DNA of 54,514 bases, from positions 1-54,514 of the forward strand of contig JAHYJO010000008.1 of assembly GCA_019429125.1 (NCBI GenBank), given 5' to 3'. This DNA is from Nanobdellati archaeon (GTDB lineage: Archaea; EX4484-52; GLR71). The translations under genes were made by a program, and so were the position numbers. Position 1 is the stretch's first letter. Each line of letters starts with the position of its first letter. Positions 36,470-54,514 of this stretch are shown piece after piece. The notes beneath the pieces were generated by a model, which was given only the letters and a program-made list of their open reading frames with translations, was not told the origin of the DNA and ran no database searches.

Positions 36470-36477
36470 ATAAATTA

Positions 36478-38287: not shown

Positions 38288-38499
38288 ATTTTATTTGACA
38301 AAAAATCAAATAATTATCACTTAATTTAAGAAAATCAAAGAAAAACTACAATTGTACAAAAATAATAATCAAAAATTATAATATGATAAAAATTATAATA
38401 TAATACAAAATAGAATATGATAAAAAATAGAATTAAAAAAGAAAAATATTGATAATATCAGTAAAATATACAATAAAATAATCATTGACTTAAATAATC

Positions 38500-38832
38500 T
38501 TAACTATATTCACGCCAAATATGAGCACATTCTGTACATTTATAAAATCGAGTCTCAGGTTCATCACTGGATCTTGTCTGTCTTGTCCACCAAAACACTT
38601 GATTATTATTACATTTAGGACAAGGATACTCCATAACAGGAAGATTAGCCCTTTTACTCTCAATTACCTGAACATCATCCAATGGTGCATGTTCTATCTT
38701 TTGAGTAAGCTTCAAAGAATCAGTTTTATGAACCTTTTCAATACTGCAACCCTTACCACAAATAAAAACAACAGACCCGTTTTCTTTCTCAGGTCTCATC
38801 AAACTTCCACACATTTTGCACATCTGCATCAT
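38500..38832 (-). CDS. tfs: transcription factor S (TFS)
   Basis: 110 aa. TFS rescues arrested RNA polymerase by stimulating transcript cleavage (TFIIS-like). The N-terminal ribbon is MCKMCGSLMRPEKENGSVVF with ICGKGC; the C-terminal ribbon is CPKCNNNQVFWWTRQTRSSD, EPETRFYKCTECAHIW, including the catalytic acidic hairpin (SSDEPET). I chose the ATG at 38832; the longer frame starts upstream of a striking run of eight G residues that forms the ribosome-binding region. A TATA (gttatataaac) lies near 38880. Confidence 0.93.
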   Translation of the reverse strand: MMQMCKMCGSLMRPEKENGSVVFICGKGCSIEKVHKTDSLKLTQKIEHAPLDDVQVIESKRANLPVMEYPCPKCNNNQVFWWTRQTRSSDEPETRFYKCTECAHIWREYS

Positions 38833-39171
38833 ATCCCCCCCCTTTAAATCTATCTCAAATAGTACCATAAAGTTTATATAACTTATGAATAACTATTGTC
38901 CAAAAAATAATATATACAAAATTTTATGGATATTTATATTAGGAGAAAACTATATAAAGATTACTACAATTTTACCCAAATAAAAACAATCGTTTTGGGC
39001 ACCAAACGATAAGCAATAATAGCAATTTAAACAATAAAAAATACAAAACAATAAAAAATTATCAAAAATAACGACAAACAATATAGAATGTATTTTTAAA
39101 TATACTACAGAGACACTATAATTAAACACATACTAAAATAAATACAAGATATTTAAAAAAAAATAAGAAAC
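38833..39171. other. intergenic region between tfs and rpoL with a hairpin
   Basis: Apart from the tfs promoter (TATA near 38880) it holds a plus-strand TATA-like ctatataaag (38950-38959). About 25-40 nt later comes atcgttttgg-gca-ccaaacgat, which forms a 9-bp stem with one bulge (near 38990-39012). No ORF follows on the plus strand. A small RNA or an operator is possible. Confidence 0.35.
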
Positions 39172-39444
39172 TTATTTTTTAAGAACTTTTTCAAATTCAG
39201 TTCCGAATTGTTCTATCTGGTCCTGTGTCCTTTTAATTGCAGCCATAATTGATTTCTTTGGATCTTTTGATTTCACAATCAGTCTTGGTGCACCCACATA
39301 CGGATGTGATTTCTCATAAGCTGCAAGAGATACTGACGAATCATCCCATAACGCTTTCCTCAAAAGATTAGGAAGAGTATGTCCACCATTATCAATCTCG
39401 ATAATTAATGTTTCTTTATCCTGTTTTTCAATCTTAACTTGCAT
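39172..39444 (-). CDS. rpoL: RNA polymerase subunit L (Rpb11 homologue)
   Basis: 90 aa; dimerises with RpoD (alpha-like) in polymerase assembly. Seen: KEDTLIIEIDNGGHTLPNLL-like segment (sequence: ETLIIEIDNGGHTLPNLLRK), ALWDDSSVSLAAYEKSHPYV and GAPRLIVKSKDPKKSIMAAI. The HT.xN(L)LR and H P motifs are those of the alpha/Rpb11 fold. I begin at MQVKIEKQ; five extra residues precede it in the longest frame. Confidence 0.93.
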   Translation of the reverse strand: MQVKIEKQDKETLIIEIDNGGHTLPNLLRKALWDDSSVSLAAYEKSHPYVGAPRLIVKSKDPKKSIMAAIKRTQDQIEQFGTEFEKVLKK

Positions 39445-39610
39445 TCCAATCACACACAAACCTATAAATAAATATTATATTCAACTTAGTATATATATCA
39501 ATACTTGATGTATTCATTTATATATACAGATATATAAACTAACCCAACAAATTTATATATGTTTGGACAATCTTTTTAAAAGTATCGTAGCTCTTAAATT
39601 ATTCTTATTA

Positions 39611-40732
39611 TTATACCTTAAAAGTATCATATATTTTAAGAATACTAGGACTTAACCCCGGTTTAACCTCATCAATCATCTGATAGAACAGTTTATTATC
39701 TATACAAAAGGAACCATTGACAACATAATCTATTGCTGCTATCTCTAAAACATTTGTGACAATACGCCTTATATCACGACCAGTATACCTTAAACCACCA
39801 CGTTCTTTATCTTCCATATAATGCACAATATCTTTAATGACAAGAGTAGGCATATAACCCTCTATCTGCTTAGTTATTTCAAGTTCAAATATAAACCCCT
39901 TCTCTTTTTTATCAGGTGGCCCAATATAAAGCATAGAATTAAATCTGCTCAAAAGCGCACCATCAATCAGATCAGGACGATTAGTTGCAGCAATAAGATT
40001 AATGTCAGCCTTACCAATACCATCAATCTGTGTAAGCAACGTTGAAAGAGTCCGGTTAGACACATGGTCATTGCTGTCCCGAACCATAGAAAGCGCATCA
40101 ATCTCGTCAATAAAAAGTACATTATTCTTATTCTCCTTAACTTTAGAAAAAATCATAGACAGGTTCTTGCTAGTTTCGCCATAATATTTAGAAAGTATAT
40201 TTGACGCATCAAGATAATATACATCCCCTTCAGGTATCTCGTTTGATAGCGCACCCACAAAAAAGGTCTTACCGCACCCAGGAGGACCATACATGAGAAT
40301 CGTATTTGATGCATTTATCTTAAAGGGCATGTCCCGAGTCATAGGATAAACCATATGCACCCTAAATTTCTCTTTTATATAATCATAGCCGACAATATCA
40401 TCAAACCAATAATCTGACTTGACTATTGCATCACCCACCCAAGAACCCATAGAATCCTCGGAATCAGAAACAGATATAGAATTACCCACACCAGAATATC
40501 CACAAGAATTACCGAATATGGAAAGCCCTAAATCCCATGCTTCTTTTTGAATATCCTTATAGCTTGCATAACCATTGTATCTCACATTGACATTATCTTC
40601 AAGCATTGCCCTCACAAAATAATCTTTTGCGATGTACATAAGTTTAAGGGAATGCAATGGCTCTGTGCTCCTAAGATCCCTGCTTTTAGCAAGAAAAGAA
40701 TTCCCTTTATCTATAAAAAGCTGTTCTAGCAC
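39611..40732 (-). CDS. Vps4/CdvC-like AAA ATPase with N-terminal MIT-like domain
   Basis: 373 aa, one AAA module, the architecture of Vps4/CdvC. Residues 1-75 form a helical, MIT-like bundle (LFIDKGNSFLAKSRDLRSTE; LKLMYIAKDYFVRAMLEDN). The linker WFDDIVGYDYIKEKF (109-123) matches the Vps4 start of the AAA domain. Walker A GPPGCGKT (149-156), Walker B LFIDEID (206-212), sensor 1 ATNRPD (249-254) and the Arg finger SRF (262-264) are intact. The end, KPGLSPSILKIYDTF (357-371), closely resembles the Vps4 C-terminal helix (KPTVS..DL.KYE.F). It should remodel filaments of the neighbouring Snf7-like protein. An alternative is a generic p97/FtsH-type AAA, but the domain order argues against it. Confidence 0.85.
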   Translation of the reverse strand: MLEQLFIDKGNSFLAKSRDLRSTEPLHSLKLMYIAKDYFVRAMLEDNVNVRYNGYASYKDIQKEAWDLGLSIFGNSCGYSGVGNSISVSDSEDSMGSWVGDAIVKSDYWFDDIVGYDYIKEKFRVHMVYPMTRDMPFKINASNTILMYGPPGCGKTFFVGALSNEIPEGDVYYLDASNILSKYYGETSKNLSMIFSKVKENKNNVLFIDEIDALSMVRDSNDHVSNRTLSTLLTQIDGIGKADINLIAATNRPDLIDGALLSRFNSMLYIGPPDKKEKGFIFELEITKQIEGYMPTLVIKDIVHYMEDKERGGLRYTGRDIRRIVTNVLEIAAIDYVVNGSFCIDNKLFYQMIDEVKPGLSPSILKIYDTFKV

Positions 40733-40744
40733 AGGCCATCACAT

Positions 40745-41428
40745 CTATTGGAGTGGTTCTTTTATGGGGACAACATTAACAAGACTGTAAGCATCCAATA
40801 TTTCCTGACTGTACACCTCAGGATTTTTTGATATGTCACTGAATATGCGATTAATATCCTCATCATATATATCAAAATCCCCAATCTCAGCCTGAGCGTC
40901 AAGCCTGTTCTCTTTTGACATCATATACCCCCTAAGCTGTATAGGCTCAGATAGATTATTGCCGTTCATTCTCTGCTTTATCTTTTCAAATCCCGATATG
41001 ACTTCACCGAGGCCCACATTTTTTATATCAGGATTAAGGAAATCCAATGCCTTCTTGTAAAGTAGATCCTTGCGCATGACATCTATATCAATCACCAGAG
41101 GCGTGTAATCAAAAACCCTTTGCTTATATATCTCTTTCTCCTTAGACAGCATATTTTCCTGCATCTCAAGCTTCTGCATAGACACTATATAAGATTTAGC
41201 CCTATCAACTTTCCCTTCATTTGTAAGTCTCCGTACCTGAAGAAAAAGCTCCTGCTTCTCAGCAACAATCTTATTTATTGCAGAATCGCATACTGCAGAT
41301 ATTCTTGACGCATTCTTCTGCTCCATCTTAAGAACATGCATATATTTTTCAAGTTCATTAACCATAACATCAATGCTCGGTTCTTGTTCAGCTTCAGTTT
41401 TCCCCATAATCCTATTAATTATATTCAT
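40745..41428 (-). CDS. ESCRT-III/CdvB-like (Snf7-fold) coiled-coil protein
   Basis: 227 aa. A short amphipathic start (MNIINRIMGK, residues 1-10) is followed by a long helical hairpin: about residues 20-66 (VNELEKYMHVLKMEQKNASR ... KQELFLQVRRL) and 71-110 (EGKVDRAKSYIVSMQKLEMQ). The turn NEGKVDRAK is the typical Snf7-family spot (compare LxxGDxxRA in CdvB). The C-terminus is acidic and ends NVVPIKEPLQ, a proline-containing tail that could act as a MIM2-like ligand of a MIT domain. The Vps4-like gene lies 12 nt downstream. Sequence similarity is weak, so the fold is inference supported by context. Confidence 0.65.
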   Translation of the reverse strand: MNIINRIMGKTEAEQEPSIDVMVNELEKYMHVLKMEQKNASRISAVCDSAINKIVAEKQELFLQVRRLTNEGKVDRAKSYIVSMQKLEMQENMLSKEKEIYKQRVFDYTPLVIDIDVMRKDLLYKKALDFLNPDIKNVGLGEVISGFEKIKQRMNGNNLSEPIQLRGYMMSKENRLDAQAEIGDFDIYDEDINRIFSDISKNPEVYSQEILDAYSLVNVVPIKEPLQ

Positions 41429-41484
41429 ATTTTACCACCCAGCCCATAATTCCCAATCCAAAATCACAATCCCCATTCCCTAAT

Positions 41485-42222
41485 TCAATACGATGGTACA
41501 TAATCAAGCTCTTTCCAGAACTGCGCGGCCTCAATAAGCTTATCATGTGCATCTAACCCTTTTTCTTCCGCAACCGTATACTTTTCAGCCATCTGCGCAA
41601 CATCCTCAAGCGACCTGTTCACTTTGCTTATATATGATACTACTATATTTTTCCGGACAACATACCGTTCCATATCCAACAATTGTGACTCATAAGAATC
41701 AACAAGCCTTTTTTCCCTATCCTCCAGAAAATGATATGCAGACGGATTATTGTCTAAAACAGATACTTCATAGCCCTTGCTTGCGCCATCCAGGGACCGT
41801 AAAAGTTTCTTTAGGAAATTAAAAATACTCCATCCTCTCTCAACTTTACCGCAATTACCTTTCAACACACCCTCACTAATATCAAATCCATCATATGAAT
41901 CATTAGAATACATTATAGACCTTCCAGGCACACAGCTCAAAAACTGTTCAATCTGCGACCTATCCTTTGCACCAAGCACCATAAGCCGTGTATCAGGATT
42001 ATATGACACTTCAATACCATCCCTCCCGATAAGACTTGAGAACGTATACTCTTTTTTAACTTTTCCAGCATGACTTATAGCACTAGCACAATCCATATCA
42101 TATACACCTAAACGTCTTGAGAATAACGCAATAGCTGCATCAAACACATCATTGTCTATCTTGTCGGTATATACATCCAGACCGTCACATTTACAATATC
42201 CTACTGTTTTTGCGCGTAACAT
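41485..42222 (-). CDS. unknown first gene of the ESCRT-like cassette
   Basis: 245 aa, no family recognised. The first half is alpha/beta with strands (TVGYCKCDGLDVYTDKIDND, GIEVSYNPDTRLMVLGAKDR, RSIMYSNDSYDGFD). The second half, from about residue 165, is helical (EDREKRLVDSYESQLLDMER; KYTVAEEKGLDAHDKLIEAA) and ends in WKELDYVPSY. The order globular domain, coiled coil and short tail recalls CdvA, the membrane recruiter in Cdv systems, but I see no PRC-barrel motif. It lies 56 nt before the Snf7-like gene on the same strand. Confidence 0.55.
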   Translation of the reverse strand: MLRAKTVGYCKCDGLDVYTDKIDNDVFDAAIALFSRRLGVYDMDCASAISHAGKVKKEYTFSSLIGRDGIEVSYNPDTRLMVLGAKDRSQIEQFLSCVPGRSIMYSNDSYDGFDISEGVLKGNCGKVERGWSIFNFLKKLLRSLDGASKGYEVSVLDNNPSAYHFLEDREKRLVDSYESQLLDMERYVVRKNIVVSYISKVNRSLEDVAQMAEKYTVAEEKGLDAHDKLIEAAQFWKELDYVPSY

Positions 42223-42332
42223 ACATATCTATTGTATTACCTTCCTGTATATTGATACCTGACCAACCACATAAGTAAATCTACATAGATTAACCACTAT
42301 AGGTAGGTGTATTTTCACATTTAGTTTTTAAC

Positions 42333-42650
42333 CTAACCAAACACTAAAAGATAAACTGATACAAATACCAAGCCAAAAAACATCCACAAGACAAATGTAG
42401 ACAGATTATCTTTGTGCATCTTCTTTATAACGCCCATGCGAAACACAGAGACTATCGTCTTATAGAAAGCTTGTGACGGAACTTTTTCATTATCAGGATT
42501 AATAGAATTCCCACAGGCATAAGGTTTCTTTGTTGCTGATGACACATCAGAATCAGTTTTTGCAAACTGATAAAACCCATAAGTAATCGCTGAAAACAAA
42601 ATAAAGATAAAAACCCAATCGTCAACCAAAAAAGACATTATATCAACCAT
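42333..42650 (-). CDS. MbhI-like subunit
   Basis: 105 aa with two hydrophobic helices (DWVFIFILFSAITYGFYQFA and TFVLWMFFGLVFVSVYLLVF) separated by a conserved-looking loop with PYACGNSIN and a VFRMGVIKK segment. In Mbh/Mbs complexes the small subunit I links the antiporter-like part to the hydrogenase arm. The position, right after the MbhH-like gene, supports the assignment. No J-N genes follow. Confidence 0.7.
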   Translation of the reverse strand: MVDIMSFLVDDWVFIFILFSAITYGFYQFAKTDSDVSSATKKPYACGNSINPDNEKVPSQAFYKTIVSVFRMGVIKKMHKDNLSTFVLWMFFGLVFVSVYLLVFG

Positions 42651-42664
42651 AACAACACCACATC

Positions 42665-44113
42665 CTAAATAATACCCAAAACAGCCTTGATATAAAATTC
42701 CCTATCCAGACCAGAACCTGAAATGATACCCATCAAACCAGTAAAATATCCCTGAAACACACCAAGCACAATACACAATATAACCAATATGACCATGACG
42801 ACCTTAAGATCATAATCTATCTTGACCACACCCGCATCTTTCCTGTTTGATAAAAATATCATATTTATCATTTTAAACGAATATGCCAATGTCAATACAG
42901 AGACAATCATTGCAACAAATGTAGCAATGGGGAATACTTCAATACCAGAAATATATATCAGAAGCTTGCTTGAAAAACCGTTTGACATAGGAAGTCCAGC
43001 CAATGCAACGGCACCCACAAGAGATGAAACAAAAAGTATAGGATTACCGAAACCTAAACCGCCCATCTTATCAAGATTACTTGTACCAAAATGTCTTATC
43101 ACAACATATGCTACAATAAAAAGAAGAATATCTATAATGACAAGATTGACCATGTGATACACAGCTCCCGTATATCCATACAGGCCAATCCCTAAAAGGA
43201 CATAACCAGTCTGCGATATTGCAGAATATGCAAGTAATTTCTTGAGGTTCTGTGTCTGCAGTGCAAGCACAGCGCCAAGCACCATTGTCAAAAATGAGAG
43301 AGCAATCAACAACCCCGAAATATTAAGATTACCAACAGTAACGACAAGCCTAAATATTGTATAAAGACCAATTATTGTCCCTGTTGCAGTAAACATAAGC
43401 CCTAAAGATAGCGGTGCATACCTTATGACCGAGGGTTTCCATGCATGGAACGGTGCAATTGCTGCCTTGAACATGAAACCAGAGATAAGCAACCCAAAAC
43501 CCACAATTGTTGCGGCAGTTGATGACACAGCCACTTTACTTGCAATGTCAGCCATATTCAAAGTTCCCAAAGACCCGTAAATAAAAACTATTCCTAAAAG
43601 TATAAGTGATGTGCTGAAACTTCCCATTATAAGATACTTGATAGATGATGCAATAGCTTTCTTTTGCCCAGTATAAGACACAAGCGCATATGACGCAATG
43701 CTCAATATCTCAAAGAATACAAAAAGATTAAATATATCCCCTGTCATTGCCGCCCCAAAAAGCCCTAATAAAAGAAGCATAAAAAGCGCATAAAATTCTC
43801 TCTTATCTTCATGTATCTCAGTCTTGCTTATGACAAGAGATGCCACCGCAACAAGGACCAAAAGTATACACACCATATAATTCAAGAAATCAACAGCAAA
43901 ACTAATACCTAAAGGTGGCATCCACCCTAACTGATAATATACAATAATCTTGTCAGAGATCAATAAAGGTAAATCAAGCAAAAGAAATATTGCACTTAAA
44001 CACACACCACCAGTCGCAATCATGAGATGATGATGCCTATGCCGACCACTAGTAATAGTTATAAGAAACACAGCCGCAAGCAAAACAGGTACAATAATAT
44101 TTAAATATGCCAT
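42665..44113 (-). CDS. MbhH/MrpD-like proton-pumping subunit
   Basis: About 482 aa, 13-14 transmembrane helices, related to NuoL/M/N and MrpD. Key charged residues lie in membrane segments: Glu in GDIFNLFVFFEILSIASYAL, Lys in FKAAIAPFHAWKPSVI, and further Lys in helices of LKKLLAYSAISQTGYVLLGI. Ion-translocating channel of the module. The longest frame begins 30 residues earlier with a poorly hydrophobic stretch, so I start it at MAYLNIIVPVLLAAVFL. It is the seventh member of the operon. Confidence 0.88.
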   Translation of the reverse strand: MAYLNIIVPVLLAAVFLITITSGRHRHHHLMIATGGVCLSAIFLLLDLPLLISDKIIVYYQLGWMPPLGISFAVDFLNYMVCILLVLVAVASLVISKTEIHEDKREFYALFMLLLLGLFGAAMTGDIFNLFVFFEILSIASYALVSYTGQKKAIASSIKYLIMGSFSTSLILLGIVFIYGSLGTLNMADIASKVAVSSTAATIVGFGLLISGFMFKAAIAPFHAWKPSVIRYAPLSLGLMFTATGTIIGLYTIFRLVVTVGNLNISGLLIALSFLTMVLGAVLALQTQNLKKLLAYSAISQTGYVLLGIGLYGYTGAVYHMVNLVIIDILLFIVAYVVIRHFGTSNLDKMGGLGFGNPILFVSSLVGAVALAGLPMSNGFSSKLLIYISGIEVFPIATFVAMIVSVLTLAYSFKMINMIFLSNRKDAGVVKIDYDLKVVMVILVILCIVLGVFQGYFTGLMGIISGSGLDREFYIKAVLGII

Positions 44114-44269
44114 CTTAAACACTTCAAAAAACTTCCGAAAGGAAGCTATCATATAGTTACAGATTTGTCCAATCATGTTAATATAATTATTCAATACGAC
44201 CATTCAACAAAAATTCAACAAAACTGCAAGACAAAAAAACAGCTCAACCAACCCATAAACTGCAATAAA

Positions 44270-44614
44270 TCATCCATAAGATGCATCTGAAATCCCAGTC
44301 ATCTTGTGATTTTTTATAATCAATGTAAGAGCAAGCGCAGTCACTGAAAGATCAATCACAATCGATGTTAATACAAGTGCCTGAGGTAGTGGATCAACAG
44401 CAGTAGATGAAAAATATGACAGTCCCATCCCACTAAGAAATATTGGAGCAATTCCTAGAGAACGATAACCAAGAGCTATCAGCAAAATGTGTATGCCTGT
44501 CGTAAAGATACCAAGACCAATAACTTTCTTTACCAGATTATCCTTAGCAATTATCGTATATATCCCAATAATGACAAAAGCTAATGAAGCAATATATATA
44601 ATCATATTTTCCAA
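44270..44614 (-). CDS. MbhG/MrpC-like subunit
   Basis: 114 aa, three transmembrane helices, NuoK-like. Seen: IYIASLAFVIIGIYTIIAKD, VIGLGIFTTGIHILLIALGY and DPLPQALVLTSIVIDLSVTA, the last being the conserved family segment with the DPLPQALVLTAIVI signature. Overlaps MbhF by 13 nt, so translation is coupled. Confidence 0.9.
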   Translation of the reverse strand: MENMIIYIASLAFVIIGIYTIIAKDNLVKKVIGLGIFTTGIHILLIALGYRSLGIAPIFLSGMGLSYFSSTAVDPLPQALVLTSIVIDLSVTALALTLIIKNHKMTGISDASYG

Positions 44615-45012
44615 GCCTCCTTTTCAAGTGAATATATTATAAGAATTATTGCTGATGACACCATCAATGTCCCTGCCAGATTCATAATCATCGTAAACCC
44701 ACCACTCCACAGATGAAATAATGTCTGACTCTCAATAAGTTTATTCCTGAACATATAACCTAATTTCCCGATTATTAAGATCATGAAAAACCCGGCAACA
44801 CTCTTTATATCTATAAGCTCATGAACTGTCAACTTATGTTCCACATCCATTTCGTCAAAAGCTATGACAAGAAGAGCAAACGCAGAACCTATAATTGCTC
44901 CCGCCGCGAAACCACCACCTGGTGTAAGGTGCCCATGGAGCGCGATATAAAAACCATACAGAACTATAAATGGAAAAACAATCTTTGTGACCTGCTTAAC
45001 TATTATATCCAT
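44602..45012 (-). CDS. MbhF/MrpB-like subunit
   Basis: 136 aa, four transmembrane helices. The family signature is HLTPGGGFAAGAIIGSAFAL; the end has a long hydrophobic segment (AGTLMVSSAIILIIYSLEKE). Located between MbhE and MbhG. Confidence 0.9.
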   Translation of the reverse strand: MDIIVKQVTKIVFPFIVLYGFYIALHGHLTPGGGFAAGAIIGSAFALLVIAFDEMDVEHKLTVHELIDIKSVAGFFMILIIGKLGYMFRNKLIESQTLFHLWSGGFTMIMNLAGTLMVSSAIILIIYSLEKEAWKI

Positions 45013-45018
45013 ACAAAA

Positions 45019-45348
45019 TCACCTTTTATCCTTGACAACGTTCTCTTTTTTAGACGTCATCCTTCTTGTAACAAGAGCAACACCTAAAGCACCCGTAAAA
45101 AATACAATTTCTTCACCCATAGTATCAAAACCGCGAAGGTCCCATACTATAGAGTTAACAATATTTGTAGACCCAGTAAGATTTGAACCTTCATTAAGAT
45201 ACTGTTCAGCCAGACTACCTTTTTCAATTATGCCAAATACATGAAGTCCATCCGCACTATAAAACAATACACAAGAAAAAATAACAAGTAACCCCATCAT
45301 TATTACTTTTTGATATTTTAGACGACGACTCAAACTAACAGTTTTCAT
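45019..45348 (-). CDS. MbhE-like subunit (MrpA C-terminal part)
   Basis: 109 aa. One N-terminal helix (VIMMGLLVIFSCVLFYSADG) and a C-terminal segment (RGFDTMGEEIVFFTGALGVA) that matches the last domain of MrpA/MrpB, with the conserved D-T-x-GE. In Mbh this domain is a separate gene, as here. Adjacent to the MbhD-like gene, with a 1-nt overlap. Confidence 0.85.
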   Translation of the reverse strand: MKTVSLSRRLKYQKVIMMGLLVIFSCVLFYSADGLHVFGIIEKGSLAEQYLNEGSNLTGSTNIVNSIVWDLRGFDTMGEEIVFFTGALGVALVTRRMTSKKENVVKDKR

Positions 45349-45578
45349 TACTCAAACCTCTCCGTCTTATGTATAGTTATAAGAAACAAAAATGTTATAA
45401 GTCCAGCACACACGGCCGCTTGCGTCAGAGCTATATCAGGAGCTTTAAGAATAAAAAATATAACGGCCACAACCAGATCAAGCCCAGCCAAAACTAAAAC
45501 TGAATGAACAAGATCTTTTAGTTCTATAGCTACCAGCGCCAAAACTATACCCACTAATAGCAATATCTCAAGCAACAT
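45348..45578 (-). CDS. MbhD-like subunit (DUF4040)
   Basis: 76 aa with three hydrophobic helices: LLEILLLVGIVLALVAIELK, DLVHSVLVLAGLDLVVAVIF and KAPDIALTQAAVCAGLITFL. The APDIALTQAAVG-type motif is that of the MrpA C-terminal DUF4040 domain. As a free gene it points to the Mbh/Mbs type and not to bacterial Mrp, where it is fused to MrpA. Confidence 0.88.
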   Translation of the reverse strand: MLLEILLLVGIVLALVAIELKDLVHSVLVLAGLDLVVAVIFFILKAPDIALTQAAVCAGLITFLFLITIHKTERFE

Positions 45579-45581
45579 AAC

Positions 45582-45908
45582 TCAGACCTCCCCCTTCAAC
45601 TTATTGTGGCCCAAATCATCTCGTGTGAGATTTTTAGGCTCAATGCCCATCCTATGTGCACAATTGACAATTGCATGGCTACTGACAGGATTAGTCAATG
45701 CAAAAAATATGACAATAAGTATTGCTTTAACAGAATATACAGTCCCTACTGTTTCAATTGCAAGAACAATTAATGCAAGCATTACACCACCTACACTAAT
45801 CATGGTCGCCGCATGTATCCTAGTATAGCAATCCTTAAACCTGAACAGTCCGATTGCGCCGATAAAAGCCGAAATTGCAGCTATATAAATTAATACTTCA
45901 GATATCAT
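45582..45908 (-). CDS. MbhC/MrpG-like subunit
   Basis: 108 aa, three helices. Seen: LIYIAAISAFIGAIGLFRFK, DCYTRIHAATMISVGGVMLA (family signature with the RxHAAT) and FALTNPVSSHAIVNCAHRMG. Overlaps MbhB by 4 nt. Confidence 0.9.
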   Translation of the reverse strand: MISEVLIYIAAISAFIGAIGLFRFKDCYTRIHAATMISVGGVMLALIVLAIETVGTVYSVKAILIVIFFALTNPVSSHAIVNCAHRMGIEPKNLTRDDLGHNKLKGEV

Positions 45909-46162
45909 CTCTCTTTACCCTTCCCCTTTATCCATTTAGATACCGCAACAGTCCCAATAAAAAGAAGCAACGAAAATGTGAGCGCAATATCAAGATACAT
46001 AGGTGCTGAATTCACAATTGCCAAAAACACAAAAAAAAGTATCATCATCTGCCCTAAAACGTCAAGCGCAACCATACGATCCGCAAATGTAGGTCCTATA
46101 AGGAAACGGACAAAAACCAAAATTGCAGATGCTAATATTATGTACCACACAAGAATCATCAA
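45905..46162 (-). CDS. MbhB/MrpF-like subunit
   Basis: 85 aa, three helices: WYIILASAILVFVRFLIGPT, FADRMVALDVLGQMMILFFV with the DR.vALDvl motif of MrpF, and MYLDIALTFSLLLFIGTVAV. Overlaps both neighbours by 4 nt, so the genes are coupled. Confidence 0.9.
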   Translation of the reverse strand: MMILVWYIILASAILVFVRFLIGPTFADRMVALDVLGQMMILFFVFLAIVNSAPMYLDIALTFSLLLFIGTVAVSKWIKGKGKER

Positions 46163-46644
46163 TCAACCACCCTCCGACCATATTTATTAAAGAAGTAATC
46201 AATCTTATCACCTTTTTTATAATTAAGACAATGCACATAAAGATTTTTATCAATTGAAACAGAAACAGTCCCTGGCGTTAAAGTTATAGAGTTCGCAAGA
46301 AGCACAAGACCCATATCAGAATTAAACTCAGGTGTAATCCTAACAATTGCAGGACTTATATTACCAGTAATTATAGCTTTAGCAACAGACAGATGCGATT
46401 GTATCTCTACAATCAAAAATACGATAGCATATATAAAAATATTAAATATTTTAAATGGATTAAATATATAATCCACAATCTTAAAGTCTGTATATTTATG
46501 AATAAAAACTGAAACTAAAATAGACACCACAAATCCGAAAGCAAGTTCCTGAACATCAAGACTATAAGTGAAGAGAATCCAAGCAATATAAATAACTAGG
46601 AATGTACTTATCTGCCTTAAAGACTGTTTCAAGAAACTGCTCAT
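46159..46644 (-). CDS. MbhA/MrpE-like subunit
   Basis: 161 aa, first gene of the operon. N-terminal helices (STFLVIYIAWILFTYSLDVQ; ELAFGFVVSILVSVFIHKYT) and a C-terminal soluble part with the MrpE motif LANSITLTPGTVSVSIDKNL. It overlaps MbhB by 4 nt. Upstream on the same strand lies the candidate structured RNA at 46732-46845. A TATA-like ctttatgtat near 46680 could give a leaderless transcript. Confidence 0.9.
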   Translation of the reverse strand: MSSFLKQSLRQISTFLVIYIAWILFTYSLDVQELAFGFVVSILVSVFIHKYTDFKIVDYIFNPFKIFNIFIYAIVFLIVEIQSHLSVAKAIITGNISPAIVRITPEFNSDMGLVLLANSITLTPGTVSVSIDKNLYVHCLNYKKGDKIDYFFNKYGRRVVD

Positions 46645-46731
46645 ACATAATTAATGTATTCTCTTGATACATAAAGGTTTCTGTATATTGACAAGAAAAT
46701 AAGAAATTATATTAAATAAAAAATAAATAAA

Positions 46732-46845
46732 AAGCACTACTAGTCCAAAGCTAACATAGTACTTCTCCCTCAGTCCAAACCACAGGAACCACCCGACCGA
46801 AACCGGATAAAGCAAATAATCACGAGACACAAACGCCTCTAAATA
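46732..46845 (-). ncRNA. candidate structured RNA or leader upstream of the Mbh-type operon
   Basis: A distinctly GC-richer island in AT-rich DNA. On the minus strand a TATA box (46862-46870, tttatatact) lies about 25 nt before it. The RNA ends in a hairpin (46764-46732: aagtacta ... tagtgctt, with an inner ttag/ctag stem) immediately followed by a T-run (46733-46718), an intrinsic-terminator-like structure. CCG-GUUU-CGG forms another small stem. It could be a free small RNA or an attenuating leader (riboswitch) for mbhA, 88 nt downstream. I recognise no known class. Confidence 0.5.
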
Positions 46846-46861
46846 ACAATCTATTTAGGTA

Positions 46862-46870
46862 GTATATAAA
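46862..46870 (-). promoter_or_regulatory. TATA box of the candidate RNA
   Basis: tttatatac on the minus strand, suitably placed (about 25 nt) before the GC-rich island. Confidence 0.45.
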
Positions 46871-46971
46871 CATTTATATTGTGTAAGATATATTTTATGA
46901 AAATAAAAAAGACAAACTCAAATTAACACTCAAAAAATAAATAGAACCCTAACCCAAAACAAATAACAGAC

Positions 46972-47757
46972 TCAATAACTAAATCTTCTTGTCCTCTCTT
47001 CAATGACGTTCAATTTTTCAATTATTAGACTTATCTGTTCCTTAAGACCTCTCAACTCAAGACTTATGTCAAGTCTGCGCATACCATCAGTATTTTGTTG
47101 CTGTATATCAGCTACTGATTTTGCAGGTTGTGGAGATTCAGGGACATCACCTCTAGACATTGAAGGATATATTGATTGATACTGTTGTTGGGGTTGCGAC
47201 ATTGGTTGAAACGACTGTTGTTGTGAGATAGGTTGTTGGGCTGGTTGTTGTAATTGAGAAAATGATTGTGGAAGCATACCCATATTAACATTATCAATAT
47301 CTCCCATACCATTTTGAGAATTGGACGATAAAGACGAATCGATACCGTATGGATTTGCTGCAGCCTGTGAAGATGGATATGATGCTTGCGCCATAACGGT
47401 CTGGTCAGAAGGATATGCATTCTGAGTAGGGTTGCTCGGCATACTCATACCAGACTCAGATGATATATTAGGGAACGTCTGTTGTCCCATCGTACCCATG
47501 GTCTGCATATCACGGACAATCTGATTAGGAGGATTAAAAGGTGTATTTGTATCAATACCCATACCCCCAGAATAGTCAGCATTAGCACTTGCTTCTAAAA
47601 CTTTAGACGATTTTGAAAATTCAGCAGTCGGATCAGATCTCAAAATATCATCAATGTTAGAATCAGATAAAGACGAAGATGAATCCAAGGGGGTACTACC
47701 TGATTTTGACGGAATATGCCCTTGAACAGTAGCTTTTAGTTTAGAAAATATATTCAT
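46972..47757 (-). CDS. Ser/Gln/Pro-rich protein with amphipathic N-terminus and C-terminal coiled coil
   Basis: 261 aa, no family recognised. The N-terminus MNIFSKLKATVQGHI is a likely amphipathic helix. Residues about 15-220 are low-complexity, rich in Ser, Gln, Asn, Pro and Met (SFSQLQQPAQQPISQQQSFQ; PMSQPQQQYQSIYPSMSRGD), and surely disordered. The last 40 residues are a coiled coil (LDISLELRGLKEQISLIIEK, LNVIEERTRRF). The layout parallels the 23445-24269 protein: anchor, disordered linker, coiled coil. I infer a membrane-associated scaffold. Gln-rich archaeal proteins are unusual in so AT-rich a genome. Confidence 0.75.
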   Translation of the reverse strand: MNIFSKLKATVQGHIPSKSGSTPLDSSSSLSDSNIDDILRSDPTAEFSKSSKVLEASANADYSGGMGIDTNTPFNPPNQIVRDMQTMGTMGQQTFPNISSESGMSMPSNPTQNAYPSDQTVMAQASYPSSQAAANPYGIDSSLSSNSQNGMGDIDNVNMGMLPQSFSQLQQPAQQPISQQQSFQPMSQPQQQYQSIYPSMSRGDVPESPQPAKSVADIQQQNTDGMRRLDISLELRGLKEQISLIIEKLNVIEERTRRFSY

Positions 47758-47826
47758 AATGACTCACATCTGTACAATAACACTAATTATTTAATTATTG
47801 ATGATATAAATAGATACCTATTAAAA

Positions 47827-48313
47827 GGCACAGTTAAAAAATGAATTTCTGTCAAATAAGTTTTTCAGAATAAAATATACATTAAACTGTCAAACTTAGG
47901 ATTTAACATCTTCTGAAATAATTCTAAAAATTACAAAATATACAGAGGGACATAGAGAAAAAAAATATTCCCTACAAACCTCCGTGTTTAATCTTTTTTG
48001 CCTTTACCATGACTCATTCATCCTGACTAAATTATAAGTCACCATTTTTGCGTATATAATTAAACCCATTATGAACCATTTTTGTGCCACAAGAACATAT
48101 TTTTGTCTTTTTTCGGAGAAATGTTTTATTTTTACAGTGAACTCAAAATCATCACTTTAAGGAAATATGCTGATAAATAGTTCAACACCGTTAAAGTTAT
48201 TAAGACACATTTGTATATTAGTCATAGAGCAAAACCTGTTTTTTGTGATAAATTAACTTATATTTTTGCTCTTTTATACTTTCTTAGCCATCACTCACTT
48301 TTTGGACAGTGCC
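47827..48313. mobile_element. IS relic (487 bp) related to the MITEs
   Basis: The left end is ggcacagttaaaaaatga and the right end (reverse-complemented) ggcactgtccaaaaagtgag, followed by tgat; the right end matches the MITE at 26927 in about 22 of 24 bases. No intact ORF. On the minus strand a start-like atggctaagaaagtataa lies just inside the right end, and near 48040-48095 one frame reads MVHNGFNYIRKNGDL, which may be a transposase relic. It also contains a copy of the ctgtcaaa repeat (47846-47900). Confidence 0.65.
47846..47900 (+). repeat. ctgtcaaa-family repeat, copy 2
   Basis: ttctgtcaaataagtttttc, then agaataaaat and ending attaaactgtcaaacttagg; about 85 percent like 14231-14285. It lies inside the IS relic. 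Confidence 0.7.
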
Positions 48314-48388
48314 AATAAAGATTTATATATATAACAATAGACATATTATAATTAGATAATTTTATTGAAAATATTACAAGGTGTTCTT

Positions 48389-49780
48389 ATGACAACAAAA
48401 ACTAAAGACAAAAAAACTACAGCAAAACCCAATACTGAAAAACCAAAAATAAAAAAATCAGCATCACCAAAAAATGCAAAAAACACAAAAAATACAGATA
48501 ATTCAAAAGACAAAAAAAGTAGCAATGCTGAAAAAAATAACGAAAAAAAAGAAATATCAAAAGAAGAGAGCCAGAAAAAACGCCTTGAGACAGCACAAAA
48601 TTTTGCAAAAGAAGTCCAAAAAGAATTTAAAAACAGCCTAAAAGCAGTCGTAGTATATGGTTCTACTGCAAAAGGAAAACACAAAGAGACTTCAGACATA
48701 GACACCTTTGTAATAATTGATGATACTAAACTAGAAAATGAGATACCTGCTGAAGTCAAAGAGAAAATAAGCGCAGACCTGAGACGCATTGCAGCAAAAA
48801 TAGACAAAGACATCACAATACAGGCATTCATGTTCCTTACAGAGTTCTGGGAATCAGTACGATCTGTTGAACCATTAATAATGGAAATCCTGAGATTCGG
48901 CATCCCAGTATATGATGTCGGCATATACATGCCAGCAAAAAGAATGCTTCAAAGAGGCATGCTCCCAACAACAAACGAAGCTGTGGCAAAAAGGATTCAC
49001 ATCGCGCCTCAACATCTTAAGATGGCTGAATACAGGATAAAGAGCGGTGCACATTTCATGGAACAGGCAATGGCAGCTGCAGGTCAAGCCCCACTGATGC
49101 TCATTGGAAAAGTACCACCAGGCAAAGAGGATGTACCCAAAGAACTAATATTTCATTTTGTAGACAAAAAACTTCTTGACGCAAAATATGGAGAGATGGC
49201 ACAAAATATACATGACTTTGCAAAAGAGATTGAACATGCTGAAAAAAAAGAGATAAAAAATTTAGGCAAAAGGACAGACAAATACCTCAAAATGACAGAT
49301 GAGTTCATAAAAGAGATGCAAGAACTCCTAAAAAGACTAACAGAGCAGAAAGCAGACACAGTATTGATGAACACATACAAAGCATTCCTCAAAGCAAATG
49401 TAGGTGCACTTGAGCTCAAAGGTGTCAAGCCCCCAGAACACTTAAAAGATCTCCCTAAAACCATGGCAGACCATTTCCCAGACATGAAAGAACTACAAGA
49501 AGACCTTTTTGAGCGTCTTGCAAAAGCACTAATTATCGCAAAGAAAGGAAAGGCCGAAATGATACCTGAAAGAGAGATTTATGGCCTTAAGGAAGAGACA
49601 AAACGTTTCATCTACACTTTGGGCAACAAACTGAAAGAGCTTAAGGACAAAGGCGAACTAAAAATAACAGAAGAAAAACTTGAGATCCTAAAGAAACTTA
49701 AGGAAGCACAAGAAAATAATAAAGACCATGCCTCAGGCCATGTGACTATGGCCAATCATTCTGAAAATAAAAAGAATTAA
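48389..49780 (+). CDS. nucleotidyltransferase-domain protein with Lys-rich N-terminus
   Basis: About 463 aa. The first 60 residues are Lys/Asn-rich and disordered (KTKDKKTTAKPNTEKPKIKK). A polymerase-beta-type NTase domain follows: VVVYGSTAKGKHKETSDIDT with the GSxxxGxxxxxSDxD motif and a later acidic strand (DKDITIQAFMFL). The rest is helical (KMAEYRIKSGAHFMEQAMAA; a long charged coil KEMQELLKRLTEQKADTVLM). It resembles archaeal NTase-HEPN-like fused proteins, substrate unknown. I start at the ATG after aaggtg; the longest frame begins with TTG. It is preceded by an IS relic. Confidence 0.8.
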   Translation: MTTKTKDKKTTAKPNTEKPKIKKSASPKNAKNTKNTDNSKDKKSSNAEKNNEKKEISKEESQKKRLETAQNFAKEVQKEFKNSLKAVVVYGSTAKGKHKETSDIDTFVIIDDTKLENEIPAEVKEKISADLRRIAAKIDKDITIQAFMFLTEFWESVRSVEPLIMEILRFGIPVYDVGIYMPAKRMLQRGMLPTTNEAVAKRIHIAPQHLKMAEYRIKSGAHFMEQAMAAAGQAPLMLIGKVPPGKEDVPKELIFHFVDKKLLDAKYGEMAQNIHDFAKEIEHAEKKEIKNLGKRTDKYLKMTDEFIKEMQELLKRLTEQKADTVLMNTYKAFLKANVGALELKGVKPPEHLKDLPKTMADHFPDMKELQEDLFERLAKALIIAKKGKAEMIPEREIYGLKEETKRFIYTLGNKLKELKDKGELKITEEKLEILKKLKEAQENNKDHASGHVTMANHSENKKN

Positions 49781-49967
49781 TAAATACAGTCTTATTCTTT
49801 TAATTTTTCCTTTCATATTTTTATTATGCTTATAATAGATACATATATAACCTATTAGTCAAAAATAATAGAAATTATAATTTTAATTACATATCCCCGT
49901 TTCTTTATGTCCTGAAACAAAATCAGAAAGATATATTAGAGACAAAATATACAGGAAATGATAAATT

Positions 49968-51293
49968 ATGAAATTTTATGCAATAGGCGGCTTTAAAGAA
50001 GTCGGAAAAAACATGACAGCCATAGAAGTTAATGGTGAAGTAGTAATCTTTGACATGGGTGTCTCAATGGAACACCTTATCGAATTAAGTGGAAAAGGTC
50101 TAAATTATGAAGATGTTGACGAACAGAAATTAAGAAGTATGGGCGTACTCCCAAATGATTTGATACTTAACACAAAAAAAGTAATTGCAATAGCAATCTC
50201 ACACGGACATCTAGATCACATATCAGCAATACCAAAACTGATAAAACGCTACAACTGTCCAATTCTTGCAACACCTTACACATCAGAAATAATAAAAAGG
50301 CTTCTTAAAGACCATAGAATGGAAGATTATCTTAAATATGTAACACCTATGCAATATGGTGATACTGCAGAACTGTCCAAAAATTTCAAGATAGAATATG
50401 TAAACATGACCCACAGTATCCCTGACGCATCTCTCATTGCAGCATACACAGCAGATGGTCTTGTAACTGTCGGCTTTGATTACAAGCTTGATAACACACC
50501 GACTTTAGGTGCTAAACCCGATTACAAGAGACTAAAAGAGTTAGGCAATGAAGGAATAAAACTTCATCTCGCTGAATGTGTACATATAAGCGATGAACAG
50601 AGATGCCCTTCTGAAAAAGTCGCAAAAGACATGGTATTTGACGCAATAGACAGAGCATACCAAGAAAGTTCAGCAGTCTACATAACTTCTTTCGCATCCC
50701 ACATTGCAAGAATAAAAAGTATAATTGAAGCTAATAAAGGACGACGAGAAATGCTTATACTAGGCAGATCTATGGAAAATTACATTGATGCAGCAAGCAC
50801 CCTTGGTATGATAGACAAATCTAATTTCACACTTGCAGGACGACCAAAAACAGTCAAAAGCAACATAGAAAATCTTGTTATGAAAAACCCAGATAAATAT
50901 CTAGTACTTTCAACAGGGAACCAAGGAGAACCAAATTCAGTTCTGTCAAGAATTGCAAACAAGGAATACAAATTCAATTTCAGAAAAGAAGATCAGGTAA
51001 TCTTTTCATCAACAGTCATACCAACCCCAATAAACAAGGCAAACAGATATGTCATGGAACGAAACCTAAAAGAACAAGGTGTAAGGATACTAAAAGATGT
51101 CCATGTCTCAGGCCATGCAATGAAAGAAGATCACAGAGACCTTCTAAGAATACTTAGACCCGAGATAGTCATACCAGTCCATGGTGAAACTGAAAGGCTT
51201 GCATCTTTCGCATCACTTTGTGAAGAAGAAGGATTCATAATCGGCGACACAGTCCACATAATGACAGACGGAAGATATGTGAATATTAAATGA
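49968..51293 (+). CDS. archaeal RNase J (beta-CASP metallo-beta-lactamase)
   Basis: 441 aa 5'-3' exoribonuclease. Seen: AIGGFKEVGKNMTAIEVNGE at the start, the metal motif SHGHLDHISAIPKL (HxHxDH), VNMTHSIPD, VGFDYKLDNTPTLG, the beta-CASP insertion with SFASHIARI and TGNQGEPNSVLSRIA, and VHVSGHAMKEDH with the last His ligand, then PEIVIPVHGE. Probably part of the RNA decay machinery along with the exosome genes. aaggaaatgataaat-type ribosome sequence precedes the ATG. Single gene. Confidence 0.95.
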   Translation: MKFYAIGGFKEVGKNMTAIEVNGEVVIFDMGVSMEHLIELSGKGLNYEDVDEQKLRSMGVLPNDLILNTKKVIAIAISHGHLDHISAIPKLIKRYNCPILATPYTSEIIKRLLKDHRMEDYLKYVTPMQYGDTAELSKNFKIEYVNMTHSIPDASLIAAYTADGLVTVGFDYKLDNTPTLGAKPDYKRLKELGNEGIKLHLAECVHISDEQRCPSEKVAKDMVFDAIDRAYQESSAVYITSFASHIARIKSIIEANKGRREMLILGRSMENYIDAASTLGMIDKSNFTLAGRPKTVKSNIENLVMKNPDKYLVLSTGNQGEPNSVLSRIANKEYKFNFRKEDQVIFSSTVIPTPINKANRYVMERNLKEQGVRILKDVHVSGHAMKEDHRDLLRILRPEIVIPVHGETERLASFASLCEEEGFIIGDTVHIMTDGRYVNIK

Positions 51294-51312
51294 TAAACCA
51301 ATAAGCTTATCT

Positions 51313-51350
51313 GACTTTTTTTATTTCTTTCTTTAATTTTTTTTACATAA
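51313..51350 (+). terminator. poly-T tracts after RNase J gene
   Basis: gactttttttatttctttct followed by aattttttttac lie about 20-55 nt after the stop. Two T-runs in a row. Confidence 0.5.
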
Positions 51351-51402
51351 AAAACAATCAGAACCATATATAATATAACTGTTTAAATATTATTATGATT
51401 AT

Positions 51403-52218
51403 ATGAACAAAAAATATATAGATAAAGTCTCAAGATTCGGCCAGCATTTCATGATAGACCCAGATATGATAGATACCATTGTAGAATTTGCAGACATAAA
51501 AGACACAGAGACAGTAATTGAGATAGGTACAGGCACAGGAATATTAACAGAAGCCATCGCAAAGACAGGTTGCGCACTCACTTCCTACGAAATAGACACA
51601 ACCCTCGAAGAGCACCACAACCACTTAAAAGAAAAATACAAGAACATAACAATAGTCTATGAAAACGCACTAAAAATAGAATTACCAGAGTTTGACAAGA
51701 TAGTTGCGAACATCCCCTACAACATTTCAGAACCATTGATACTTAAATTATCAAAATGCGATTTCAAGGAAGGCATATTGACAGTTAACAAAAGCTTTGC
51801 AGAAAAAATGCTTAACATGGAAAGAGAATCCTCACTTTTATCACTCTTTACCCCTGCATATTTTGATGTAGAATTCCTTGAGATAGTGCCTAAAAGTTCT
51901 TTTGAACCCAGACCACGAATATCATCTGCAATCATAAACATAAAACCCATTAAAAAAGAAAACATTTCAGAAAACGACAAGAGACTATTCATCACGCGCA
52001 ATCTATTTGACCAGCGCACTAAAAAGACAGAAAACGCACTCCTTGAAGCAATAATTGATTATAAGACCTTAGTAGACAAAAAAAGATATACCCAAAATGA
52101 ATCGCGCGAATTCTTAAATACCCTAGAAATAGACGATAAAACCCTTGAAAAGAAAGTAATAATGTTATCTTATGAAGAATTGAGTACCCTACTTGATAAA
52201 TTAGAAGAAAAATTATAA
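51403..52218 (+). CDS. KsgA/Dim1-like methyltransferase paralogue
   Basis: 271 aa, Rossmann methyltransferase of the KsgA/Dim1 family: FGQHFMIDPDMIDTIVEFAD, VIEIGTGTGILTEAIAKTGC (SAM loop), VANIPYNISEPLI (motif IV N-I-P-Y) and FEPRPRISSAIINIKPIKKE. The adjacent KsgA (53048) has a more canonical sequence, so this is a diverged second copy. The C-terminal domain ends with an unusual helical part (KKRYTQNESREFLNTLEIDD). Possibly a rRNA or other RNA adenine methyltransferase with a different target. Confidence 0.85.
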   Translation: MNKKYIDKVSRFGQHFMIDPDMIDTIVEFADIKDTETVIEIGTGTGILTEAIAKTGCALTSYEIDTTLEEHHNHLKEKYKNITIVYENALKIELPEFDKIVANIPYNISEPLILKLSKCDFKEGILTVNKSFAEKMLNMERESSLLSLFTPAYFDVEFLEIVPKSSFEPRPRISSAIINIKPIKKENISENDKRLFITRNLFDQRTKKTENALLEAIIDYKTLVDKKRYTQNESREFLNTLEIDDKTLEKKVIMLSYEELSTLLDKLEEKL

Positions 52219-52297
52219 TTTTTAAACCAAAGCAACAAACATATAAACAACTTATCCCAAAATAATTAAATCCTAAATAAATGAAAAGGTAATAATT

Positions 52298-53032
52298 ATG
52301 ATTAGAAGTTCCAACCCTGCGCTCAATTCAAAAACATTTGAACACAATGGACCAGTTACTGAAAAGATGACGCTTAATGGTACAACCACAAAAACTTTAA
52401 TTCTTCTAATGCTTGTTATGTTTGCGGCCTCAAAAACATGGGCTATGTTTTTGGACGGAAATCCAAATCTGACGCTATTTATGATAGGTGGACTGATTGG
52501 AGGTTTAATATTTGCAATAATCACGATATTCAAAAAGACCTGGTCTCCAGTTACCGCGCCTATATATGCACTTCTTGAAGGTCTGGCTCTTGGTGGAATC
52601 TCTGCATTTTTTGAGCAGATGTATCCGGGTATTGTAATAGATGCCGTATTCTTAACCTTTGGCACATTATTTGCGCTTCTAATGGCTTATAAGTCTGGCA
52701 TGATTAAAGCAACAGAAAATTTCAAGCTAGGTATAGTTGCTGCAACAGGCGGAATCATGTTAATCTATGTAATTAATTTTATCATGAGTTTCTTTGGTTC
52801 ACAAATTCCATTAATCCACGAAAGCGGAACATTTGGAATCTTATTCAGTCTATTTGTAGTAACAATTGCAGCATTAAACCTTGTATTAGACTTTGATTTC
52901 ATAGAGAACGGTGTAAAAGCCGGCGCTCCAAAATACATGGAGTGGTACGCATCATTTGGACTAATAGTCACATTGGTATGGTTATATCTTGAAATCTTAA
53001 GACTTCTTGCAAAATTGAGAAACAGGAACTAA
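52298..53032 (+). CDS. Bax inhibitor-1/YccA family membrane protein (bacterial type)
   Basis: 244 aa, seven predicted transmembrane helices. N-terminal signature RSSNPALNSKTFEHNG and the family segment PVTAPIYALLEGLALGGISA are typical of bacterial BI-1 members; the C-terminal DFDFIENGVKAGAPKYMEWY, followed by ASFGLIVTLVWLYLEILRLL, carries the acidic pair associated with the channel pore. Ion or calcium leak function is inferred from structural homologues. The composition is less A-rich than the neighbours, but membrane-protein codon use could explain it. Located between the two KsgA-like genes. Confidence 0.9.
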   Translation: MIRSSNPALNSKTFEHNGPVTEKMTLNGTTTKTLILLMLVMFAASKTWAMFLDGNPNLTLFMIGGLIGGLIFAIITIFKKTWSPVTAPIYALLEGLALGGISAFFEQMYPGIVIDAVFLTFGTLFALLMAYKSGMIKATENFKLGIVAATGGIMLIYVINFIMSFFGSQIPLIHESGTFGILFSLFVVTIAALNLVLDFDFIENGVKAGAPKYMEWYASFGLIVTLVWLYLEILRLLAKLRNRN

Positions 53033-53047
53033 TCTTTCAAATAAAAC

Positions 53048-53857
53048 TCATTTCCCCATCAATACCATCATCTCGCAAGAAGATAGCGCCAACTGATCAA
53101 TATTCATCGTACGCACACGAACATCAGCCAACGACAAACTGTGCCCAATCTTTACAAGCACATCCTTGTCAAGTTCCATCTCACGCTTTGAATGTGATAT
53201 AGCCTTCCATAATTTCTGATTCTTATGTATAAAAGCTGCCCGTACAAAATTAAAGAAGAATTCTTCATCTAAAACTTTTGCTTTTGTTTCTTTAGGCAAA
53301 AGTTTAATTATTGCAGAATTAACTTTAGGTGTAGGATAAAAACATTTCTTACCCACTTTTCTTAAGAATTTAGGAGTAAAATGATATTGCGCAAGAACAG
53401 AAATCCTTGAATAATTCTTCTCGCCAGGATTTGCAACAAGCCGATCTGCAAACTCTCTCTGCATAATAAGTACTGAATGTTTACCTAATCTTCCGAGCAA
53501 TTCAACAATCTTAGATGAAATCTGATAGGGGATGTTTGCCACACATTTATCAAATGGTGGTATAGTTACTTTAAGTATGTCCCCTTGTATTATTTCAACA
53601 TTAGTTATATTTTCTTCAGTTAATCTATCTTGAAGTATTTCAGCAAGTTCAGAATCAAGTTCAACAGCTATCACTTTTTTAGCAACTTTTGCAAGCTCAA
53701 TAGTAAGTGCACCATAACCTGCGCCAATTTCAAGGACTGTATCCTTATCAGATACCTCAGCTTCGCGAATCTCAACACCGATTATATTTTTATCTACAAG
53801 AAAGTTTTGACCTAAATTGTTATCAGGTCTAATGTTAAGGTCCGATATAATACTCAT
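53048..53857 (-). CDS. ksgA: rRNA adenine dimethyltransferase KsgA/Dim1
   Basis: 269 aa. Dimethylates the two adjacent adenosines near the 3' end of 16S rRNA. Seen: NLGQNFLVDKNIIGVEIREA, TVLEIGAGYGALTIELAKVA, AVELDSELAEIL, VANIPYQISSKIVELLGR and FYPTPKVNSAIIKLLPKE, all canonical. Normal archaeal length. It is convergent with the BI-1 gene, 15 nt between the stop codons. Confidence 0.95.
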   Translation of the reverse strand: MSIISDLNIRPDNNLGQNFLVDKNIIGVEIREAEVSDKDTVLEIGAGYGALTIELAKVAKKVIAVELDSELAEILQDRLTEENITNVEIIQGDILKVTIPPFDKCVANIPYQISSKIVELLGRLGKHSVLIMQREFADRLVANPGEKNYSRISVLAQYHFTPKFLRKVGKKCFYPTPKVNSAIIKLLPKETKAKVLDEEFFFNFVRAAFIHKNQKLWKAISHSKREMELDKDVLVKIGHSLSLADVRVRTMNIDQLALSSCEMMVLMGK

Positions 53858-53910
53858 AGATTAAATTAGTACGTGTACCTTTTATTGTTTTGTATAAAAA
53901 TGAATAATTA

Positions 53911-54162
53911 TCATATACTCTTAATCTCTGAATTCTTATGCCTCTGCAATTTATTGAATACACCATAGCTATCCTTTATTGCGCGGCCCACAGTAGTTGT
54001 ATTAGTCTCATACTTATCAGCTATTTTCTGTGCAGAAATACCATCATTTTTAAGCAGAATCCATTCTTTCTTTATCTTGTTCCACTCACGCGGGTGCGCA
54101 ATAGCCAAATGCTGATTATTACTTGTAAGGATGAATTTTCCACAGAAGTTACATACGCGCAT
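53911..54162 (-). CDS. C2H2-type zinc finger plus HTH protein (83 aa)
   Basis: Residues 4-23 (CNFCGKFILTSNNQHLAIAH) form a C2H2-like zinc finger, Cys4-x2-Cys7-x10-His18-x4-His23. An HTH follows (GISAQKIADKYETNTTTVGR), the turn and recognition helix of which resemble invertase-type HTH domains. Probably a small DNA-binding regulator. No operon partner. It lies beside the terminal repeat of the window and may belong to a mobile element. Confidence 0.7.
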   Translation of the reverse strand: MRVCNFCGKFILTSNNQHLAIAHPREWNKIKKEWILLKNDGISAQKIADKYETNTTTVGRAIKDSYGVFNKLQRHKNSEIKSI

Positions 54163-54514
54163 ATAGATACTTGTTATCTGTTATTTAAAAATGTTAAATG
54201 AAATAAATAATTAATAATTATATCCTAAGTTTGACAGTTTAATGTCTATTTCATTCTGAAAACCCATTTGACAGTTGGCAATTATTGAGCATTTTGGCTT
54301 GATTAAATCATATAATTTCTTGATTTTTTACTAAAAATAGACTCATTTTGAAATAAAAATAAGACTAAATGTCTCTTTTTTTATAATTTTTCTAAATTTT
54401 AGCCCAACTGTCAAATTTATTTGGCTAATTTTGGTGAATTTTTTTAATTTTTAGTTTAAATTAAATCTGAATTTCAATATAAATCAAACCATATAACTTA
54501 TTTTAATTTTGGCA
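54163..54514. other. intergenic, T-rich end of window with repeats
   Basis: No gene. It holds the ctgtcaaa-family repeat (54224-54290, inverted) and a further inverted pair: atttgacagttgg (54266-54278) and ccaactgtcaaat (about 54403-54415). The remainder is AT-rich with no recognisable motif. Confidence 0.5.
54224..54290 (-). repeat. ctgtcaaa-family repeat, copy 3, within a small inverted-repeat element
   Basis: Reverse complement of 14221-14285 in nearly full length (cctaagtttgacagtttaat ... attctgaaaacccatttgac). Together with ccaactgtcaaat near 54403 it bounds an approximately 190-bp non-coding element with inverted ends. Confidence 0.65.

Follow-up and report, generated by a model that had tools for sequence, protein, structure and literature searches.

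The window, by which we mean the whole stretch of 54,514 nucleotides analyzed here, carries on its minus strand a gene for a 261-aa protein (46972-47757), a candidate small RNA gene that we call RNA-A (46729..46845, as matched by the covariance model R1), and a gene of the MnhE family (46159..46644; Pfam PF01899, E 1.1e-28). The 261-aa protein has no Pfam match. Its ends are conserved, with FSKLK near the start and EERTRRFSY at the end, and its middle is variable and rich in Q and P. The MnhE-family gene is the first of an operon, and the downstream genes that were tested with Pfam encode Mrp/Mnh-type subunits E, F, G and B as well as one NuoK-like and one antiporter-like subunit.

RNA-A is 117 nt long as read on the minus strand. 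Its G+C content is 0.436 over 46729-46845, compared with 0.338 for the whole window and a mean of 0.27 for noncoding 110-mers, defined as those that do not overlap ORFs of at least 80 aa. This bears out the initial annotation, which had described a G+C-rich minus-strand island of about 110 nt; the two segments named in it, CCGGTTTCGG and GGACTGAGGGAG, are both found there. Of all 110-mers in the window, 3.7% match or exceed this G+C content; the island is near the coding level, and not extreme. Other G+C islands of the window are a 59-aa ORF (island 20111-20285, ORF 20110-20289), a stretch at 45381-45515 within a 76-aa ORF (45348-45578), and a marginal spot at 11646. ARAGORN found no tRNA in the window.

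A TATA box had also been claimed on the minus strand, and TTTATATA is present at 46863..46870. A TATATA-like sequence stands at the same place in all six species that have RNA-A. It is preceded in the six species by an upstream promoter element, TATATCYTMWACAAYATAAA (46873..46892), which is conserved in the alignment. This TATA-like block lies at a fitting distance before RNA-A, whose likely 5' end is at about 46838-46842. We propose that RNA-A is transcribed from the TATA box at 46870-46863 and that it would end in a U-rich tract (46713..46733), the likely termination site, which consists of TTTTT plus a longer U-rich stretch. The 3' end is likely to fall inside this tract, between 46733 and 46713. 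T-runs come after the 3' hairpin in all six species.

With two mismatches allowed, the TATATCYTMWACAAYATAAA pattern gave 16 matches in seven genomes, versus 7 for the control, and six of the 16 were those of RNA-A. A sequence like it, with two mismatches, occurs upstream of a 418-aa transporter-like ORF (G000:C22:49778-49797, L074), which we take to resemble an MgtE-type transporter. This site may reflect a shared regulator, or it may be due to chance.

Conservation and predicted structure of RNA-A

The structured RNA of the initial annotation is conserved in close relatives: both sequence and structure are kept in six of the seven genomes of the genus. R1, which was built from the same six RNA-A sequences that it matches, recovered them with E values of 1.1e-18 to 5e-28. 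The best matches in a DNA search of 61 genomes were in five congeners (E 1e-10 to 3e-53). The seventh congener assembly has a completeness of 68%, and the contig concerned ends within the upstream gene.

In the closer clade of four, the mean identity was 0.79 for RNA-A and 0.75 for the 45 bases before it. The MnhE gene had 0.80, the downstream spacer 0.63, and the upstream spacer beyond those 45 bases 0.34. Between the two clades, the corresponding values were 0.57 for RNA-A, 0.63 for the preceding 45 bases, 0.18 for the upstream spacer, and 0.65 for the MnhE gene.

No match outside the genus was judged real when R1 was run against 34 genomes of the phylum and 247 relatives. The other matches in the 34 phylum genomes were weak (E 0.004 to 1). 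Those at E 0.004-0.005 came from two genomes of another family, and the one that we examined lay within a 724-aa ORF. The only match at E ≤0.005 among the 247 relatives (E 0.002) was antisense in a 351-aa ORF. We took the match at E 0.038 (G021), the remaining weak ones, and a second match in the window's own genome (E 0.10) to be chance. Viral contigs, scanned by pattern, contained no match to RNA-A. The 261-aa upstream gene is present in nine of the 34 phylum genomes, and R1 found no RNA-A in the two carriers outside the genus. Since RNA-A is absent outside the genus, it may be young and dispensable.

The six copies can be drawn with four hairpins on the minus strand. Hairpin 1 (46824..46839) has 34 of 36 pair cells paired and two-sided changes at five of six positions. 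Hairpin 2 (46790..46809) is paired in 36 of 36 cells and has two-sided changes at three of six positions. The hairpin 3 region (46768..46788) is paired in 33 of 36 cells, also with two-sided changes at three of six, and it is weak in the window's copy, where four of the six pairs form. These three were registered by hand. The invariant GGUUUGGA (46774..46781), which is the same in all six sequences, lies mostly in the loop of hairpin 3. Hairpin 4 (46733..46763) is bulged and stands directly before the U-tract. All 66 of its pair cells are paired across the six species, and six of its 11 pairs vary, five by one-sided changes and one by a two-sided change. The initial annotation had reported a stem of 8 plus 4 bp followed by a U-run; the stem and the TTTTT are there, but the stem is one of 8 plus 3 bp with a 2-nt bulge.

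In the model alignment, 88.0% of the pair cells are standard pairs, a value that none of 500 shuffles reached, and four pairs show two-sided change, which 19 of 500 shuffles also reached. The covariation score of the automatic alignment is unremarkable, being equaled or exceeded by 81 of 500 shuffles, and its pair types are fewer than in the average shuffle (475 of 500 have at least as many). In the divergent clade, this alignment places the arms of hairpins 1 and 2 out of register; the hand registration used for the values above leans towards structure. On covariation among relatives, proposed earlier as a check, the two-sided changes at five of six positions of hairpin 1 speak for structure and rest on hand registration, and the automatic-alignment score does not speak for it. 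With their own 3' arms, hairpins 1, 2, and 3 formed 5.67, 6.00, and 5.50 pairs, versus 3.33, 4.50, and 4.53 pairs with the arms of other species.

At z -0.9, the folding of the window's copy of RNA-A does not exceed that of shuffles. The z values are -1.1 to -3.7 for the five other copies and, at the 3' end, -2.4 to -4.1 for the last 40 nt of each of the six. What sets RNA-A apart from chance is comparative: in the closer clade its mean identity is 79%, compared with 34% for the upstream spacer.

The 3' end of RNA-A has the layout of a bacterial-type intrinsic terminator, that is, a stable hairpin and then a U-run. However, terminator-like hairpins are not enriched in 36000-54514, where a scan found eight, versus 9.4 in shuffles, with the bulged hairpin of RNA-A itself not among the eight. 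The available text of PMC8716108 describes archaeal terminators as U-tracts without a strict need for an upstream hairpin. Both fit the earlier remark on the scarcity of hairpin terminators in archaea. Therefore, it may be preferable to regard the conserved 3' hairpin as belonging to the RNA itself and not as an essential terminator, and it would serve to stabilize the 3' end.

Competing readings of the locus

We suggest that RNA-A is probably a standalone noncoding sRNA gene of about 105-125 nt, found, as far as seen, in one genus of small-genome archaea. This reading draws on the conservation in six of seven species, the promoter-like block, the gene order, and the 3' hairpin with its U-tract.

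A structured RNA with a protein partner or a housekeeping role, such as a guide RNA or an RNP scaffold, and with no antisense pairing, is a less likely reading that still deserves consideration. It would account for the several kept hairpins and the invariant loop. However, there were no Rfam matches at gathering scores in the window, and at E up to 10 only weak and implausible matches to RNA-A appeared. By eye, RNA-A shows no conserved box C/D or H/ACA layout. We also rejected archaeal RNase P RNA as its identity, as RF00373 scores above the cut-off elsewhere in all seven congeners. The confinement of RNA-A to one genus further argues against this reading.

It is improbable that RNA-A is released from the mRNA of the upstream gene as its conserved 3' untranslated region. 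That gene is indeed the same-strand neighbor in all six species, but the spacer is poorly conserved (34%), whereas the TATA-like block directly before RNA-A is conserved (75%).

Still less probable is a cis-acting leader that would control the Mrp/Mbh-type operon as a riboswitch or an attenuator, with regulated termination at the hairpin. RNA-A is on the same strand as the MnhE gene and ends 61-84 nt before its start in four species, which would suit a leader. In the window, the next gene does follow, with its start at 46644, although the distance from the first U-run is 84 nt and not the 88 nt given earlier. In G001 and G002, however, the distance is 607-613 nt, and a convergent gene of 172 or 158 aa, on the strand opposite to RNA-A, separates RNA-A from the MnhE gene (L006:981-1499, plus strand; L005:1575-2051, minus strand). 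The two interposed proteins share 139 of 155 residues, and the genes differ 12, 4, and 18 times at codon positions 1, 2, and 3, as in a coding gene. They have no Pfam match. A gene-free 5' position thus fails in two of six species, and we rejected the riboswitch or cis leader. With that gene between them, RNA-A is independent of the downstream gene, as a trans-encoded sRNA should be.

Comparison of the six genomes also points to a separate TATA-like promoter of the operon, AGAAACCTTTATGTATC (46666..46682, minus strand). Every one of the six genomes, among them G001 and G002 with their interposed gene, has a CTTTATGTATC box some 30 nt ahead of the MnhE start. Given the interposed gene and this conserved box, the operon is best read as starting at its own promoter. 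Of the two layouts that the initial annotation had offered, the leader is the one that gives way, and the small RNA is favored by the conserved structure, the TATA-like block, and the U-tract end.

Least probable of all is a short protein-coding gene: a 59-aa ORF (46651-46830) overlaps RNA-A, and the frame of the 3' hairpin is open throughout RNA-A in five of six species (with a stop inside it in G005), but the low A content of the strand makes stops rare there, the 3' hairpin and GGTTTGGA differ between species in their relative codon phase (1 in three, 2 in the three others), start codons occur at unshared places with none common to the six copies, the ends of the open frames differ widely, single-base gaps fall within conserved blocks, and the helices show two-sided changes. 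We rejected the small protein gene on the shifting phase and the missing common start codon.

Possible pairing partners of RNA-A

If RNA-A is a standalone sRNA, it may act in trans by base pairing through the exposed GGUUUGGA, with AGGG within a few bases, a step that is less certain than its transcription and 3' end. The complement of this loop, TCCAAACC, was not enriched in seven genomes (142 sites versus 164 for the backward control). The contexts of 75 sites in four of the seven genomes were examined (all 17 non-self sites of G000, all 20 of G001 in 19 regions, 20 of 23 in G003, and all 18 of G005). Several of the sites adjoin TATA-like boxes and are more likely to be promoter elements; others fall in genes. 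In three species (L083, L125, L138), TCCAAACC lies beside a TATA-like box in front of a gene that appears to be orthologous among them, where it looks like a promoter element of the BRE kind.

The complement search gave one conserved noncoding candidate partner, without compensatory change. This is RNA-B, an sRNA-like gene of about 60 nt (minus strand of G000 contig C23:36690-36751; L151:1610-1671). It was matched in five of the seven congeners, at E values no higher than 8.3e-18, by a model derived from the same five copies, and the model had weak matches (E 0.006-0.09) in ten other phylum genomes. The mean column identity of RNA-B is 88%. It has a TATA-like box upstream, a 25-nt unpaired tail that carries UCCCUCA and UCCAAACC, a 9-bp hairpin, and then a U-run. 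In G006, RNA-B is located between a divergent gene and the end of another gene; we take the first to be helix-turn-helix-like and the second to resemble the small subunit of DNA polymerase D. In G002, RNA-B itself is kept next to a different downstream side.

The RNA-B tail and RNA-A are partly complementary, with a pairing energy of -17 to -22 kcal/mol. Because RNA-B was found by searching the RNA-A complement, such energies are not independent evidence. For the full-length duplex in G000, G006, G005, G002, and G001, the observed energy was reached by 3, 7, 6, 3, and 40 of 400 RNA-B shuffles and by 1, 3, 19, 6, and 57 of 400 RNA-A shuffles. In joint folding, the shuffles that reached the observed value were 13, 41, 43, 10, and 1 of 100 for the same genomes. 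The RNA-A stretch of the window ranked 3rd, 2nd, 4th, 2nd, and 3rd for the five RNA-B tails among 7262 overlapping 60-nt window stretches on both strands, with overlaps counted once and the best eight listed. The bipartite pattern gave 18 matches versus 2 for controls in seven genomes, and ten of the 18 were RNA-A and RNA-B themselves. Against pairing, one RNA-A/RNA-B mismatch in G005 has no compensating change, and G001 and G002 carry a diverged second block in their RNA-A.

Pairing between RNA-A and RNA-B, which is not unique by energy, is thus a lead only. That the two form an antagonistic sRNA pair, in which one would sequester the other, is doubtful. If the pairing were true, regulation between small RNAs in archaea would be directly testable.

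Comparison with known systems

RNA-A is best read as a lineage-specific sRNA gene of a known general kind, and not as an operon leader. As far as a limited literature search shows, few descriptions exist of lineage-specific sRNAs from small uncultured archaea.

Klein et al. reportedly found, in 2002, noncoding RNAs of high G+C content in AT-rich hyperthermophilic archaea. RNA-A resembles these in having been found as a G+C-rich island in AT-rich archaeal DNA. It differs from them in its weaker contrast (44% versus 34%), the lack of an Rfam match, and its occurrence in one genus.

Intergenic sRNAs of a halite community, as presented in the available text of PMC7002113, include one of 266 nt that was assigned to Nanohaloarchaea. 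Like the archaeal intergenic trans-acting sRNAs in that text, RNA-A is intergenic, structured, and conserved in relatives, and pairing through conserved loops is presumed. The Nanohaloarchaea sRNA, whose expression was shown, is longer than the candidate RNA-A (266 nt versus about 117 nt).

RNA-A also resembles bacterial intrinsic (Rho-independent) terminators, and sRNAs whose 3' ends they form, in having a hairpin directly before the 3' U-tract. In contrast to those terminators, its hairpin carries a bulge, and the scan of 36000-54514 showed no enrichment of terminator-like hairpins. Archaeal 3' ends, according to the same available text of PMC8716108, need a U-tract and no strict upstream hairpin. 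As it stands, RNA-A is one more conserved candidate sRNA gene. Its architecture is compact and conserved, and so is its 3' hairpin, a feature that archaeal terminators do not strictly require.
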